Positions 10,253 through 45,316 of a DNA stretch of 64,000 nt are shown here, piece after piece. Positions within the stretch are counted from its first letter, which is position 1, and every line of letters starts with the position of its first letter. Under the pieces are notes generated by a model, which was not told the DNA's origin, did no database searches, and saw only the letters and a list, made by a program, of their open reading frames with translations. The DNA comes from Streptomyces sp. MRC013 (lineage in GTDB: Bacteria > Actinomycetota > Actinomycetes > Streptomycetales > Streptomycetaceae). Location of the stretch: contig NZ_CP094264.1 of the NCBI RefSeq assembly GCF_023614235.1, forward strand, positions 2,170,001 to 2,234,000. Direction: 5' to 3'. Position numbers and translations under genes: made by a program.

Positions 10253-10990
10253 TCAGGGGGTGCGGCGGCGGAGGGTGGCGGCGCCGAGGGCGAGGACGAG
10301 GAGGGCGCAGCCGGTGACGACCAGGACGTCGCGGAGGAAGTCGCCGGTGACGTCCGGGTGGCGGAGGACCTGGTTCATGCCGTCGACGGCGTAGGACATG
10401 GGCAGCGCGTTCGAGACGGCCTCCAGGACGGGCTGCATCCTGTCGCGCGGTGTGAACAGGCCGCAGAGGAGCAACTGCGGGAAGATCACGGCCGGCATGA
10501 ACTGGACGGCCTGGAACTCGGACGCGGCGAAGGCGGAGACGAACAGGCCGAGCGCGGTGCCGAGGAGCGCGTCGAGCAGGGCGACGAGGAGCAGCAGCCA
10601 GGGTGAGCCCGCCACGTCGAGGCCGAGGACCCACACGGCGACGGCGGTGGTGAGGGCCGACTGGACGGCGGCGAGCAGGCCGAAGGCGAGGGCGTAGCCG
10701 GCGACGAGGTCGGCTTTGCCGAGCGGCATGGCGAGGAGCCGTTCGAGGGTGCCGGAGGTGCGTTCGCGTAGGGTGGCGATGGACGTCACCAGGAACATCG
10801 TGATCAGCGGGAAGATCCCGAGCAGGGACGCGCCGATCGTGTCGAACACGCGCGGGCTGCCGTCGAAGACGTACCGGAGCAGCGTGGTCATCAGCACCGG
10901 GACGAAGAGCATCAGGGCGACGGTCCGCGGGTCGTGCCTGAGCTGGCGCAGGACTCGGGCGGCGGTGGCCAGGGTGCGGAAGCCGTTCAC
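10253..10990 (-). CDS. ABC-2 type transporter permease
   Basis: A 245-residue integral membrane protein with six predicted helices, including ALMLFVPVLMTTLLRYVF, LLGIFPLITMFLVTSIATL and LLVVLTGC-like C-terminal segments. After helix 2 comes RERTSGTLERLLAMPLGKAD, the cytoplasmic coupling motif of ABC-2 permeases. It starts with GTG overlapping the ATPase stop (GTGA, 10987-10990), so translation is coupled. With the preceding gene it forms a two-gene exporter of unknown substrate, resembling DrrB or NodJ. Confidence 0.9.
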   Translation of the reverse strand: MNGFRTLATAARVLRQLRHDPRTVALMLFVPVLMTTLLRYVFDGSPRVFDTIGASLLGIFPLITMFLVTSIATLRERTSGTLERLLAMPLGKADLVAGYALAFGLLAAVQSALTTAVAVWVLGLDVAGSPWLLLLVALLDALLGTALGLFVSAFAASEFQAVQFMPAVIFPQLLLCGLFTPRDRMQPVLEAVSNALPMSYAVDGMNQVLRHPDVTGDFLRDVLVVTGCALLVLALGAATLRRRTP

Positions 10991-11769
10991 GGCTGCTCCT
11001 CGAGGGGGGTGCGGGCGGTGGCCGCGGCGGCGGTGTCGACCATGTGGAGGAAGGCGTCCTCGACGGTGCCGGTGCCGCTGCGGCGGCGGAGGGCCTCGGG
11101 GGTGTCGTCGGCGAGGAGCTCGCCCTCCCGCAGGAGGAGGAGGCGGTGGCAGCGCTCGGCCTCGTCCATGACGTGGGAGGAGACGAGGAGGGCGGCGCCC
11201 CGGTCGGCGGCGATGCGGTGGAAGAGGTCCCACAGGTCGCGGCGGAGGACGGGGTCGAGGCCGACCGTCGGCTCGTCGAGGACCAGGAGGTCGGGAGTGC
11301 CGAGGAGGGCCACGGCGAGGGAGACGCGGCTGCGCTGTCCGCCGGAGAGCCGGCCGGCGAGGGCGTCGGCGTGACCGGTGAGGTCCACGTCGGCGAGGGC
11401 ACGGGTGACGGCTTCGGCGCGCCGGTCGCGGTGGCGGCGCCCGGGGTGGAGGACCTGGGCGAAGTAGGCGAGGTTCTGCCGGACCGACAGGTCGGCGTAG
11501 ACCGACGGGGACTGGGTGACGTAGCCGATGCGGGAGCGGAGCGCCGGGTCGCCGGCGGGTCGGCCGAGGACGTTCAGGGTGCCGGTGACCTCGGCCTGGG
11601 CGCCGATGACGGCGCGCATGAGGGTGGTCTTCCCGCAGCCGGAGGGGCCGAGGAGGCCGGTGATCCGGCCCGGGGGTACGGAGAAGTCGAGGCCGCGCAG
11701 AACGGTGCGGCTCCCCCGGACGACCGTCAGGTCCCGGGCCTCGACGGCCGCGCCAGAATAATTCACCAT
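10987..11769 (-). CDS. ABC transporter ATP-binding protein
   Basis: A 260-residue nucleotide-binding subunit. Walker A GPSGCGKTT, Q-loop VTQSPSVYADLSV, signature RLSGGQRSRVSLA, Walker B LLVLDEPTVGLDP and H-loop LLVSSHVMDEAERC are all intact. It pairs with the coupled ABC-2 permease. The start codon (MVNYSGAAVEARDL) lies within an AT-rich imperfect palindrome (11758-11781), which probably binds a repressor. No regulator gene is adjacent in this operon. Confidence 0.92.
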   Translation of the reverse strand: MVNYSGAAVEARDLTVVRGSRTVLRGLDFSVPPGRITGLLGPSGCGKTTLMRAVIGAQAEVTGTLNVLGRPAGDPALRSRIGYVTQSPSVYADLSVRQNLAYFAQVLHPGRRHRDRRAEAVTRALADVDLTGHADALAGRLSGGQRSRVSLAVALLGTPDLLVLDEPTVGLDPVLRRDLWDLFHRIAADRGAALLVSSHVMDEAERCHRLLLLREGELLADDTPEALRRRSGTGTVEDAFLHMVDTAAAATARTPLEEQP

Positions 11770-11781: not shown

Positions 11782-12116
11782 GATGCTAGGGACGGGGAGT
11801 GTCAAGGCACACCCGGCCCCGACACCGAGGCGGCGGGGCCGCCCGGGTACGGCGCCCGGGGCGGCTCCCCGCCATCCCGGTACGAGGGCGGGGCGGCTCC
11901 GGCGGGACCGGGCGACCGGCGCGGGCGGGCCGGTGCGGGCAGGTGGATGCGGGCAGGTCGGCGTGAGTCGCCCGGTACGGGTCGATCGGCACAGCTGGAC
12001 GGGCGCGGGCGGGTCAACGCGACCCGGCCGGCACGAACCGGTCCGCACGAACCGCCCGGAGGCGCGGCGACGCCGGCCGGCACGGGGCGCGGCCGGGGCG
12101 AGTGGGGCCGGGGCGA

Positions 12117-12211
12117 GGGGGCCGACGCGAAGGGGCCGACGCGAAGGGGCCGACGCGAAGGGGCCGACGCGAAGGGGCCGACGCGAAGGGGCCGACGCGA
12201 AGGGGCCGACG
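12117..12211. repeat. 14-bp tandem repeat, about 7 copies
   Basis: Unit GGGGCCGACGCGAA repeats with an exact 14-bp period; GCCGACG occurs at 12121, 12135, 12149, 12163, 12177, 12191 and 12205. Copies are virtually identical, implying recent expansion. As 14 is not a multiple of 3, the false reading frames through it cycle through three peptide phases. Confidence 0.92.
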
Positions 12212-12212
12212 T

Positions 12213-12247
12213 GGGCGCCGTGCGCCGGGCGCCGTGCGCCGGGCGCC
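12213..12247. repeat. Second 14-bp tandem repeat, about 2.5 copies
   Basis: Unit GGGCGCCGTGCGCC starting at 12213, 12227 and 12241 (partial), immediately next to the first array and with the same period but a different sequence. Confidence 0.8.
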
Positions 12248-12490
12248 ACCGCCGGCGCGTGCCGGGTGGGAGTGGGGGCGGGCCGCGCGGGCCACCCGGA
12301 CGACGCGGCACTCTCCGCCTGCATCTCCCCTCCCCCTCCCCCTGCTCCTCCACCTCCGCCTCCGCCTCCCCCTCCGCCTGCCCTTCCGTCTCCGAGGACC
12401 CGACACCACGACACCCCGCGAACACGCCGTCGGGTACGTCCCGGAGCTCGGATCGGCGGCGGATCGCTCGGAGGGAGCGAGCCCCCTCCC

Positions 12491-12590
12491 GCGACGCCGA
12501 ACGGCACCGCGCGGCACCGACTGGCGCCATCCGGCACCACTTGACGCCACTTGGCGCCACTTGGCAGCACCCAGTGCCATGCGGCGTCAC
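12491..12590. promoter_or_regulatory. Ten degenerate decamers (nnGGCGCCAC-like), candidate operator array
   Basis: Ten consecutive 10-bp units align on a GGCGCC/GGCACC/GACGCC core at positions 3-8 of each unit, for example CTGGCGCCAT (12521), CCGGCACCAC (12531), TTGACGCCAC (12541), TTGGCGCCAC (12551), TTGGCAGCAC (12561), GCGGCGTCAC (12581). A 10-bp period puts every core on one face of the helix. The array lies 158-257 bp before the start of a ribbon-helix-helix regulator gene; proteins of that fold (MetJ, Omega) bind tandem short repeats. Binding by this regulator is inference. Confidence 0.55.
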
Positions 12591-12717
12591 TTCAGCTTCC
12601 GAGGGACCCCCGCAAGCGCATGACGCCACAGCGGCCTGGGGCACCCCGCACCCACCTCCGCAGCTCAGGCGCCCTCATTTCGGCCCGCGCCCGTCAATGC
12701 GCCACCCGGGCTTGCAC

Positions 12718-12749
12718 ATGGCACCACAATGGCGCCATAATGGCGCCAT
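12718..12749. promoter_or_regulatory. Three 11-bp operator units over the regulator's start codon
   Basis: ATGGCACCAC (12718), ATGGCGCCAT (12729) and ATGGCGCCAT (12740) at exact 11-bp steps. The last two are perfect 10-bp palindromes and the third overlaps the ATG at 12748. No Shine-Dalgarno is visible in this position, so the units may also mask or replace the initiation region (leaderless start possible). Most likely autoregulation. Confidence 0.6.
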
Positions 12750-13260
12750 GGACCTCACGCCGTATATCGACACCCTCCACCGCGAGCTCGCGGTGGCCGC
12801 CGAGGCCGGCGGGGAAGACGCCCGCGAGCTGGCCGAGCGGCTCACCGCTCCCCTGGAGTCGGCGACCCGCCTGGCGATGCTCAACGTGCTCTCCGCCGCG
12901 ATGGACGAGATCACCCGCGAACTCGCTCCCGGATCGGTCGACGTACGGCTGCGCGGATTGGACCCGGACTTCGTGGTGACGCCGCCGCCCACCGGCGACG
13001 GCGCCCCCGCGGAACCGACCGCGCCCGCCGAACCGCCCAGGACCCCGGCCGACGGCGACGACGGCGGCACCGCCCGCGTCAACCTGCGTCTGCCGGCACA
13101 CCTCAAGGCCCGTGTCGAGGAGGCCGCGAGCCACGAGGGCCTGTCGGTCAACGCCTGGCTGGTGCGCGCCGTGTCGGTCGCGGTCGACGGCGGCACCCGG
13201 CCGCGTACGACGGGGAGGATCCAGACCATCGGACAGAGCGTCACGGGCTGGGTCCGCTAG
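12748..13260 (+). CDS. Ribbon-helix-helix (HicB/Arc-type) regulator
   Basis: A 170-residue protein. The N-terminal 75 residues are helical (LTPYIDTLHRELAVAAE, ATRLAMLNVLSAAMDEI). A Pro/Ala linker (PPPTGDGAPAEPTAPAEP) follows. Residues about 111-150 hold a ribbon-helix-helix: ARVNLRLPAHLKARVEEA as strand and helix A, then GLSVNAWLVRAVSVAV as helix B. This fold is annotated as HicB-family antitoxin in many Streptomyces, but there is no hicA toxin beside it. It heads a likely operon with a DUF4097 protein and an ABC exporter, so it is better read as their repressor. Palindromic units cover its start codon. Confidence 0.78.
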   Translation: MDLTPYIDTLHRELAVAAEAGGEDARELAERLTAPLESATRLAMLNVLSAAMDEITRELAPGSVDVRLRGLDPDFVVTPPPTGDGAPAEPTAPAEPPRTPADGDDGGTARVNLRLPAHLKARVEEAASHEGLSVNAWLVRAVSVAVDGGTRPRTTGRIQTIGQSVTGWVR

Positions 13261-13343
13261 CCGCCCCCACGCCCGACCCACTCCACCCCTCACCACGTCC
13301 CACCAGCGGGAACGTGGCCACGACCCAAGAGAACGGGACAGCC

Positions 13344-14189
13344 ATGCCTTCTTTCGACACTCCCGAACCGATCTCGGCCACGGCGCACGTGGAGGCCGGT
13401 TCCATCCGCTTCGCCGCGGGCGACCGCCCCCACACCGTCGTCGAGGTGCGGCCCCGCGACGCCGGGCGGGACCAGGACGTCCGCGCGGCCGAACAGACCG
13501 AGGTCGCCTGCGCGGACGGCGCGCTGACCGTCAGGACGCCCAAAGGGCGCCACCTGTTCGGCCGTACCGGCGTCGTCGACGTGACGGTCGAACTGCCCGC
13601 GGGCTCGCACGTCGACACGACCGGCGCCTGGACCCAGGTGCTCGGCGAGGGCCGGCTCGGCGAGGTCCGGGTGAAGACCTCGTCCGGCGACGTCCGTCTC
13701 GACACCACCGGCCCGCTGCACCTGACCGCCACCCACGGCTCGATCGCCGTGGACCGGGTCGAGGGCGCGGCCGAGATCACCACCAGCTCCGGCAGCCTGC
13801 GCGTCGGCACCGTCGACGGCCCCGCCGTCCTGAAGAACTCGCACGGCACCACGACCGTCGGCGCCGTCACCGGCGACCTGCGGGTGAGCAACGCCCACGG
13901 CGGCATCGACATCGGGCGCGCCGGGGCCTCCGTCACCGCCACCACCGCCACCGGCACCCTGCGCGTCGCCGAGGTCGTGCGCGGCACCGTCCGGTTGGAG
14001 ACCTCCCACGGCGCCATCGAGGTCGGAGTCCGGGAGGGCACCGCCGCCTGGCTCGACGCCGGCTCGAACGCCGGCCAGGTGCGCAACGCGCTCACCGCGT
14101 CCGAGGCCCCGGAGGGCACCGAGGAGACCGTCGAGATCCACGCGCGCACCCGGTACGGCAACATCGACGTCCTCCGCGCCGGAGCCTGA
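13344..14189 (+). CDS. DUF4097 beta-strand repeat protein
   Basis: A 281-residue protein starting MPSFDTPEPISATAHVE, the usual family start (an in-frame GTG lies 10 codons upstream). The body consists of repeated short beta strands with VKTSSGDVRLDTTG, LTATHGSIAVDRV, ITTSSGSLRVGTV and LRVSNAHGGIDIG, predicted to stack into a right-handed parallel beta structure. No signal peptide or helix is visible. The family's role is unknown. It often precedes DrrA/DrrB-like exporters, as here, so a role in sensing or in coupling to the transporter is possible. Confidence 0.85.
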   Translation: MPSFDTPEPISATAHVEAGSIRFAAGDRPHTVVEVRPRDAGRDQDVRAAEQTEVACADGALTVRTPKGRHLFGRTGVVDVTVELPAGSHVDTTGAWTQVLGEGRLGEVRVKTSSGDVRLDTTGPLHLTATHGSIAVDRVEGAAEITTSSGSLRVGTVDGPAVLKNSHGTTTVGAVTGDLRVSNAHGGIDIGRAGASVTATTATGTLRVAEVVRGTVRLETSHGAIEVGVREGTAAWLDAGSNAGQVRNALTASEAPEGTEETVEIHARTRYGNIDVLRAGA

Positions 14190-14254: not shown

Positions 14255-15286
14255 ATGTCTTCTTTTGTCATGCCCACATCCAAAGTGCCCGGCAGCCGCA
14301 CGGCTCCGGCCGCCGTGTCCGCCGTCGGCCTGCGCAAGTCGTACGGCGGCGGGGCCGTCCTCGACGGCATCGACCTGCACATCCCGGCCGGCTCGGTCTT
14401 CGCGCTGCTCGGGCCCAACGGCGCCGGCAAGACCACCACGGTGCGCATCCTCTCCACGCTCGTCGCCGCCGACGGCGGCCGGGCGCAGGTGGCGGGCCAC
14501 GACGTCGCCGCGTCACCGGACGGGGTACGCGCCGCGATCGGCGTGACCGGGCAGTTCTCCGCCGTGGACGGACTGATCACCGGTGAGGAGAACATGCTCC
14601 TCATGGCGGACCTGCACCACCTCCCCCGCGAGGAGGGCCGCCGCACCGCCACCGAACTGCTGGGGCGTTTCGGCCTGGTGGACGCGGCGAAGAAGCCCGC
14701 CGCCACCTACTCCGGCGGCATGAGGCGCCGCCTCGACATCGCCATGACGCTGGTCGGCGGCCCGCGGATCATCTTCCTCGACGAACCGACCACCGGTCTC
14801 GACCCGCGCAGCCGCCGCGACATGTGGCGGATCATCCGCGAACTGGTCGCCGACGGCGTCACCGTCCTCCTCACCACGCAGTACCTGGAGGAGGCCGACC
14901 AACTCGCCGACCGCATCGCCGTGCTCGACGGCGGCAGGATCGCGGCGGAGGGCACCGCCGGGGAACTGAAGCGGCTGGTGCCCGGCGGGCACGTGCGTCT
15001 GCGCTTCTCCGACCCGGCCTCCCTCCGGAGCGCCGCCCTCGCGCTGCGCGGGACCGCCCTCCCCCGGCCCCCCGCCCCCACCCGGGCGGGGCACACTCCC
15101 GCCGACGAGGCGCTGACGCTGCGGATCCCCGGCGACGGCAGCCCGCGCGAACTGCGCTCCATCCTCGACCGGCTGGACTCGGCCGGTGTCGAGGCGGACG
15201 GGCTGACCGTGCACACCCCCGACCTCGACGACGTGTTCTTCGCCCTGACCGGCGGCACCGACCAGCCCCAGGAGGCCGACCGATGA
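14255..15286 (+). CDS. Daunorubicin-resistance-type ABC transporter ATP-binding protein
   Basis: A 343-residue DrrA-like ATPase. Walker A GPNGAGKTT, Q-loop TGQFSAVDGLITGEEN, signature YSGGMRRRLDIAM, Walker B IIFLDEPTTGLDP and LLTTQYLEEADQLADRI are intact. The C-terminal 100 residues form the DrrA-type domain ending in DLDDVFFALTGG. ACGGAGGA lies 6 bp before ATG 14255. It overlaps the permease gene by ATGA. It likely powers export of a hydrophobic compound; the substrate is unknown. Confidence 0.93.
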   Translation: MSSFVMPTSKVPGSRTAPAAVSAVGLRKSYGGGAVLDGIDLHIPAGSVFALLGPNGAGKTTTVRILSTLVAADGGRAQVAGHDVAASPDGVRAAIGVTGQFSAVDGLITGEENMLLMADLHHLPREEGRRTATELLGRFGLVDAAKKPAATYSGGMRRRLDIAMTLVGGPRIIFLDEPTTGLDPRSRRDMWRIIRELVADGVTVLLTTQYLEEADQLADRIAVLDGGRIAAEGTAGELKRLVPGGHVRLRFSDPASLRSAALALRGTALPRPPAPTRAGHTPADEALTLRIPGDGSPRELRSILDRLDSAGVEADGLTVHTPDLDDVFFALTGGTDQPQEADR

Positions 15287-16068
15287 GCTCCCTGCCCCTC
15301 GCCGTGCGCGACTCGTCCACGATGCTGCGCCGCAACCTCCTGCACGCGCGGCGCTATCCGTCCCTCACCCTGAACCTGCTGCTCACCCCGATCGTCCTGC
15401 TGCTGCTCTTCGTCTACGTCTTCGGCGACGTGATGGGCTCGGGCATGGGCGGCGGGGACCGCTCCGACTACGTCGCCTACGTCGTGCCGGGCATCCTGAT
15501 GATGACCGTCGGAGGCACCGTGGTGGGGACCGCGGTGTCGGTGTCCAACGACATGACCGAGGGCATCATCGCCCGCTTCCGCACGATGGCGATCCACCGC
15601 GGGTCCGTGCTCGTCGGGCACGTCCTCGGCAGCGTGCTGCAGTCGGTCGCCAGCGTGGTCCTCGTGGGCGCCGTCGCCGTGGCCGTCGGCTTCCGGTCGG
15701 TGGACGCCACGGTCCTGGAGTGGCTGGCCGCGCTCGGGCTCACGGCGCTGGTCGCCCTGGCCCTCGCCTGGATCGCGGCCGGGATGGGCATGGTCAGCCC
15801 GAACGCCGAGGCCGCCAGCAACAACGCCATGCCGCTGATCGTCCTGCCACTCGTCTCGAGCGCCTTCGTCCCGGTCGACGCGATGCCGGGCTGGTTCCAG
15901 CCGATCGCCGAGTACCAGCCGTTCACCCCGGTCATCGAGACACTGCGCGGGCTGCTGCTCGGCAGCGGGATCGGGCACGACGGGTGGCTCGCGGTCGCCT
16001 GGTGCCTGGCCCTCTCCGCGCTCGGCTGCCTCTGGTCGAGGGCGGCCTTCGACCGCGACCCGAAGTAG
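15283..16068 (+). CDS. DrrB-type ABC-2 permease
   Basis: A 261-residue membrane protein with six helices, starting SSTMLRRNLLHARRYPSLTLNLL and including LLTPIVLLLLFVYVFGDVMG and a long YVAYVVPGILMMTVGGT helix. The coupling motif is NDMTEGIIARFRTMAIHR and the C-terminal part has NAMPLIVLPLVSSAFVP and YQPFTPVIETLRGLLLG, both DrrB hallmarks. Translationally coupled to the ATPase. Last gene of the regulator - DUF4097 - DrrA - DrrB operon. Confidence 0.92.
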   Translation: MSSLPLAVRDSSTMLRRNLLHARRYPSLTLNLLLTPIVLLLLFVYVFGDVMGSGMGGGDRSDYVAYVVPGILMMTVGGTVVGTAVSVSNDMTEGIIARFRTMAIHRGSVLVGHVLGSVLQSVASVVLVGAVAVAVGFRSVDATVLEWLAALGLTALVALALAWIAAGMGMVSPNAEAASNNAMPLIVLPLVSSAFVPVDAMPGWFQPIAEYQPFTPVIETLRGLLLGSGIGHDGWLAVAWCLALSALGCLWSRAAFDRDPK

Positions 16069-44861: not shown

Positions 44862-45316
44862 GGCACCCAGCCTAGCCAGCCCGCGCCCGGTACCCCGACG
44901 GGGGCGGGGCCGGGGGGCGCCGGGGTGGGAAGACCTCGGACGGCTTGGGCACCGGACGCCCCGCGGGGGCGGGGGCGGGCGGTTTGGGCGGCCGCGGCCT
45001 CCCCGGCTCCTCCGGCGCCCCTCCGCCGGCCGGGCCGCACGGAGCGGGGACGGCCGGGGGGCGCGGGGCGGAGCGGGCCGGGCGGCGCGGGGCGGGGCCG
45101 CCGCGGGGCGCCTCACCGCCGGGCGGGGCCGGGCGCGGAGTACGCCCCGGGGCTCGCGGCCCACCGGGGCCGGACGCCGGGCCGCCTCGTGGCCCGTGGG
45201 GCGTGAGCACGGTGACGACCGTACGCGCGAACAGGACGAATCGGATGGACGGGCGGTGCCGGGCGCGTTCGGCCCCCGCGCCGCTCCGGAACCGCGCCCG
45301 GTCCCCGCCCGAACGC
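44862..45316. other. Very GC-rich non-coding gap
   Basis: About 455 bp, over 80% GC, with GGCGCGGGGCGG-like direct repeats around 45050-45120. Frames through it (Pro/Gly/Arg-rich) have no family features, so I call nothing. It may hold the promoter of the small membrane protein gene. Confidence 0.5.

Follow-up and report, generated by a model that had tools for sequence, protein, structure and literature searches.

The 64,000-nucleotide stretch of Streptomyces sp. MRC013 DNA analysed here, referred to as the window, contains a gene for a 170-residue regulator that is followed in succession on the + strand by genes encoding a DUF4097 (toastrack) protein, a DrrA-type ABC ATPase, and an ABC-2 permease. 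Upstream of the regulator gene and over its start codon lie two groups of short repeated units, which are listed below together with the predicted promoter and the genes.

12492..12591, no strand: distal array of ten degenerate 10-bp units with a TGGCGCCA-like core
12621..12628, no strand: lone unit TGACGCCA at -127, a position common to many orthologues
12712..12717, + strand: predicted -35 hexamer TTGCAC (the scan gives the register TGCACA at 12713)
12719..12726, no strand: putative operator unit 1, TGGCACCA, within the -35/-10 spacer
12730..12737, no strand: putative operator unit 2, TGGCGCCA, whose CA is the beginning of the -10
12736..12741, + strand: predicted -10 hexamer CATAAT, with a predicted transcription start at about 12748, the A of the ATG
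12741..12748, no strand: putative operator unit 3, TGGCGCCA, whose final position coincides with the A of the ATG
12748..13260, + strand: 170-aa regulator with a helical N-terminal domain and a C-terminal ribbon-helix-helix (RHH) domain (residues 108-146)
13344..14189, + strand: DUF4097 (toastrack) protein
14255..15286, + strand: DrrA-type ABC ATPase
15283..16068, + strand: DrrB-like ABC-2 permease, scoring above the cut-off of Pfam ABC2_membrane and below that of NCBIfam drrB

Farther upstream in the window, a 14-bp minisatellite, GGGGCCGACGCGAA (12104-12211, 7.7 copies), precedes a GGGCGCC repeat at 12213-12247 and a stretch rich in pyrimidines at 12313-12394, and a second ABC transporter pair, recognised from translation only, occupies 10253-11768 on the minus strand, divergent from the RHH operon.

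The regulator and its gene neighbourhood

An earlier sequence-only reading of this DNA had placed an RHH domain at the C-terminus of the regulator, and both the domain and the fold were found there, at residues 108-146, with profile matches to Arc (1b28, E 0.009) and Mnt (1mnt, E 0.005). The RHH strand R110-V-N112-L-R114 aligns with the Arc strand Q-F-N-L-R, R110 and R114 are invariant in 61 aligned proteins, and, by analogy with Arc, Asn112 would sit in the strand facing the DNA. The HicB family profile (PF05534) also matches, at 29.6 bits vs a cut-off of 21, over residues 111-141 only. HicB antitoxins possess an RNase H-like N-terminal domain; the N-terminal part of the regulator gives no Pfam match of this kind (E up to 1) and is modelled as two helices and a hairpin. 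The family is large, with at least 7990 matches among 7999 candidates scored, and the closest relative of the regulator among the matches listed, from S. somaliensis, is 93% identical.

Orthologous loci were considered as a Streptomyces-type set and as loci of other families. The Streptomyces-type set comprises the window, 80 loci (the best 80 of 341), and L083-L096, L098, L190, and L191, giving 98 loci, or 95 distinct loci after removal of three near-identical ones; L082, a repeat of the window's own genome, was left out, and a few of the 80 loci are titled Kitasatospora, Wenjunlia, Actinacidiphila, or Saccharothrix. In wider searches, the protein was matched at class level in 103 of 296 genomes and at phylum level in 64 of 396, the phylum count including weak RHH-only matches, and the loci examined were the best 30 of each search plus 40 more from the class search.

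DUF4097 comes after the RHH gene in all 70 Streptomyces-type loci having more than 3.3 kb of downstream sequence. Among 38 other-family loci with long flanks, it was detected by tblastn in 33 and additionally by Pfam at L186 and L189 (above the cut-off) and L182 (below it), and neither method detected it in the long flanks of L185 and L188. DrrA is present at 66 of the 70 Streptomyces-type loci and near 11 of the 38 other-family RHH genes, where it lies downstream at 9, on the opposite strand at one, and divergently at one. It is therefore DUF4097 that accompanies the RHH gene constantly, a correction to the earlier reading, which had named a DrrAB-type exporter alongside the regulator. At L187, divergent DrrA and DrrB genes lie across from the RHH gene and have an upstream region in common with it.

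The promoter block and the distal array

Three units at 11-bp steps over the start codon, two of them perfect palindromes, had been described previously, and this description was borne out by units starting at 12719, 12730, and 12741, of which the second and third lie within perfect ATGGCGCCAT palindromes. The only sigma-70-like site in the 951 bp scanned (12450-13400) is that at 12713-12741, with 0.0 expected, and the block extends over the spacer between the two predicted hexamers, the -10 hexamer itself, and the start codon. A Shine-Dalgarno-like 4-mer was found at -20 to -4 in none of 150 loci, and the regulator gene is probably leaderless; in S. coelicolor, 264 mRNAs have leaders shorter than 10 nt (PMC4681348). 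Because the -10 hexamer consists of the end of unit 2 and the beginning of unit 3, the -10 match and the missing Shine-Dalgarno sequence are partly forced by the unit sequence and do not constitute independent evidence. A TTGACA-like -35 is present in 44 of 52 other-family loci; at Streptomyces-type loci, a match to TTGACA at 4 of 6 positions occurs in 24 of 98, near the 18% background, and the conserved form is TTGC.

Under a criterion of 6 of 8 matches per unit with a 1-bp shift allowed, the three-unit block occupies the expected place in 97 of 98 Streptomyces-type loci (94 of the 95 distinct ones) and in 49 of 52 other-family loci, with proteins as low as 26% identical, and it occurs by the same criterion at 9 of 13,050 control positions in coding sequence. 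The exceptions are L015, L108, L159, and L160, and the block is retained in 35 of the 52 other-family loci when no shift is allowed. Its occurrence follows that of the protein. Of 28 Streptomyces genomes, all 16 that encode the protein have the block together with ATGGA, as do 0 of the 12 others (reversed control 0), and, in a partly overlapping sample of 199 Streptomyces genomes, the block occurs in 115 of the 124 that match the protein strongly vs 1 of 75 without, four genomes with weak matches only (E 5e-4 to 9e-4) being counted as protein-less. That single match is a simple TGACGTCAGGG tandem repeat, the reversed pattern matches in 2 of the surveyed genomes, and 9 of the 124 protein-bearing genomes lack the block pattern at 3 mismatches.

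The ten degenerate 10-bp units that had been noted upstream are real and were placed at 12492-12591, with unit starts at 12492, 12502, and so on to 12582; five of the ten are recognised by the unit matrix, and these five share a single 10-bp register. Self-match of the array is 0.59, 0.59, and 0.61 at lags 10, 20, and 30 vs 0.11-0.40 at the remaining lags from 2 to 33, and the lag-10 value was reached at any of these lags by 0 of 5000 dinucleotide shuffles. It was also reached by 5 of 7988 segments of the window, four of which are the distal array itself and one a GC-rich stretch at 45041. A scan of the 5.33-Mb genome for the three-unit patterns with a 10- or 11-bp period and at most 3 mismatches gave no further occurrence, and the reversed patterns gave 0.

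A search upstream of the orthologues showed that phased units are kept. Neither of the two outcomes named in the sequence-only reading as refuting it, orthologous promoters without phased repeats or equal 10-bp autocorrelation in shuffled sequence, was observed. The matrix derives from two promoter units of 81 loci, those at -29 and -18, the distal region being kept out of its construction, and in the distal regions of 80 orthologues (the best 80 of 341) it gives 416 matches vs a mean of 67 in 20 shuffles, with 191 exact 10-bp unit pairs vs 0-2. Control regions yield 2 matches downstream (80 loci) and, between -700 and -500, 30 matches with one 10-bp pair (76 loci). The common unit places are -226 to -166 in 10-bp steps, -127, -106, and -51, followed by -29, -18, and -7 in 11-bp steps. 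Three to nine detected units lie in one register (one gap allowed) in 69 of the 98 Streptomyces-type loci, and the longest distal register varies by locus from 1 to 9 detected units. Since the distance from array to promoter also varies among loci, there is little support for phased looping.

At other-family loci, extra units occur at high density between -50 and -93, mostly 10-12 bp apart (87 matches within -90..-41 at 52 loci vs 41 in a 262-bp control stretch), and short runs lie farther upstream in a few loci, such as L103, L110, and L168; the long distal array is absent from most loci of these families. On these counts of blocks and units in the two sets, the promoter block is what the families widely share, and long distal arrays belong mainly to Streptomyces. 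Searched alone across whole genomes at 2 mismatches, the 10-bp pattern is not a clean marker, with occurrences at the RHH locus in 9 of 16 protein-bearing genomes and in 3 of 12 genomes without the protein, and matches of its reversed form in 16 of 28.

One toastrack-drrAB operon (L223, G173:C1:3456000-3462500) has an array and no adjacent RHH gene; upstream of it lie three units, the third degenerate, plus TTGCG, and the sole detected copy of the protein in that genome is about 2 Mb away, beside another toastrack gene. This arrangement suggests that the operator serves the operon and may be read in trans. At another locus (L222, G252:C12:754500-761000), a three-unit operator precedes a gene named from its translation as serine-hydrolase-like, and its product begins with MNLTSNV, similar to the N-terminus of the RHH protein.

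Besides the units, another conserved element, GTTTYCGCAGSTCAGRGYRG, holds a near-fixed place, mostly -93 to -95, at loci L002-L081 (the best 80 of 341), and is degenerate in the window, at about 12655-12673. In five genomes it occurs in 9-14 copies each at 2 mismatches (reversed pattern 0-3), one copy adjoining a CarD-like gene and one preceding a SufR-like gene, both named from translations, and it is probably the site of another regulator.

Residue 112 and the rival explanations

Residue 112 of the protein is Asn, Thr, or Ser, and the bases of the unit vary with it. Loci with Asn112 mostly use units whose third base is G and sixth base C (TGGYRCCA), whereas loci with Thr112 or Ser112 mostly have A and T at these places (TGACGTCA). 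At the 52 other-family loci, residue 112 accounts for the largest share of the variation among the 170 columns (adjusted value 0.66; next column 0.44), and the comparison of 10 Asn loci with 42 Thr/Ser loci gives a one-sided p of 3.8e-7 with related loci treated as independent. A second set comprised 21 loci, 20 of other classes and one of the same class, of which 16 have units and five do not; units upstream of the block were also counted in this analysis, L201 was dropped, being the same gene as L188, and L205 was kept out of the tree. Here the G fraction separates fully, at 0.33-0.90 in 8 Asn loci vs 0-0.25 in 8 Thr/Ser loci (p = 4e-4, kinship ignored). Discordant rows number 3 of 79 (L174, L195, and L198). 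The tree contains only 5 changes of residue 112 and one usable pair of rows on well-supported branches, so that these p-values overstate independence. Asn-type Streptomyces loci have 720 G vs 141 A in the half-sites of their distal arrays, and upstream units in other families have G/A counts of 35/6 for Asn, 17/36 for Thr, and 27/28 for Ser, the Ser-type upstream units not following the base rule.

From the covariation of residue and bases and the matched presence and absence of block and protein, the RHH product very probably binds the units, as the sequence-only reading had held. That a different regulator binds them, with the RHH gene merely its target, is improbable: the element at -93 does suggest that another factor acts here, but no other column predicts the bases of the site as well as residue 112, its rule repeats in the second set, and the block is missing from 74 of the 75 protein-less genomes. 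A toxin-antitoxin operator of the HicAB type is more improbable still, to the point of being negligible. Some homologues are named "toxin-antitoxin system HicB family antitoxin" and the PF05534 match passes its cut-off; against this, the next gene encodes a toastrack protein, and no match to PF07927 (HicA) was found in the 5.33-Mb genome, which is 98% complete, by a search that matches 7 of 14 control genomes. Identity as a HicB antitoxin was rejected, and the label is misleading because the genome shows no HicA.

Other alternatives concern what the bound protein would do. It might act as an activator, or as both activator and repressor with an activating distal array, in the manner of AvtR, another RHH protein that does both depending on concentration and protects about 100 nt (PMC5569661). 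This is unlikely, as the most conserved units overlie the predicted -10 and the start point, where a bound protein would normally block polymerase. Somewhat less doubtful, and compatible with the preferred reading of the promoter block, is the view that the protein binds the block and the distal array is a decaying repeat of little function. The distal units are indeed degenerate, their longest register ranges from 1 to 9 detected units, and most other-family loci are without long distal arrays; however, 80 loci (the best 80 of 341) hold 191 exact 10-bp pairs vs 0-2 in shuffles, the register from -226 to -166 is common to many loci, and the distal unit bases retain the Asn-type preference.

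Proposed mechanism and its meaning for the family

The position of the units on the core promoter, as predicted, points most naturally to autorepression of the operon, and on the computational evidence it is highly likely that the protein is an Arc-like RHH autorepressor of the toastrack (often DrrAB) operon, with dimers on the promoter block and an extra upstream array. Each dimer would read one 8-bp two-fold symmetric unit, TGGYRCCA in Streptomyces, and three dimers spaced 11 bp, or one helical turn, apart would occupy a leaderless promoter from its -35/-10 spacer across the -10 to the start point, thereby excluding RNA polymerase. In Streptomyces, the 10-bp upstream array would bind further dimers on nearly one face, which could raise occupancy or buffer the repressor; a filament, as proposed in the sequence-only reading, or a loop would be further conceivable forms. 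Repression would be lifted by a signal that may act via the toastrack partner or via the helical N-terminal domain.

MetJ binds contiguous 8-bp boxes, and half-sites of Arc are spaced 11 bp apart. With periods of 10 and 11 bp at this locus, the MetJ-type model of tandem 8-bp boxes advanced in the sequence-only reading does not fit, and the closest models are Arc or RelB, RHH repressors whose dimers lie about one turn apart; the strand and profile matches here are to Arc. RelB dimers occupy one face of two adjoining 12-bp half-sites, the spacing being essential (PMC2812701). The present system differs from both in having three units and a long array rather than two units, an RHH domain placed C-terminally behind a helical domain, and no toxin partner. 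Long RHH arrays have precedents, in the parts of the literature consulted here, in a plasmid system and in archaeal viruses. The omega/ParB protein of pSM19035 binds long contiguous 7-bp repeats, at least four of which are needed for full activity (PMC9499535), although it serves plasmid partition and its period differs from the 10 and 11 bp found here. AvtR and SvtR of archaeal viruses are RHH autorepressors with proposed spreading from strong to weak sites, AvtR protecting about 100 nt (PMC5569661), although their site sequences and hosts are unrelated to those here.

The window holds toastrack, ABC ATPase, permease, and RHH genes together, the same kind of gene set as the toastrack-ABC-RHH operons of Actinobacteria in a published survey, the accessible part of which does not give operator, promoter, or specificity (PMC11237479). 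The earlier reading could point to no described operator of such length for this family; neither the operator nor the specificity rule was found in literature searches, and the gene neighbourhood is already in print in that survey.

A more speculative extension, possible though doubtful, is that the distal array nucleates a multi-dimer RHH-DNA assembly acting as a concentration-sensing switch, in which the array would buffer the repressor or deliver it to the promoter and to a membrane-linked toastrack/exporter complex. If true, this would give an envelope-defence operon a sharp on/off response, with a threshold set by the species-variable array length. Because arrays differ naturally in length, with 1 to 9 detected units in the longest register, they provide a ready series for asking what long RHH operators do. 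A large family, some members of which are labelled toxin-antitoxin, gains a candidate site for binding, a candidate operon as target, and a specificity rule that turns on one residue.
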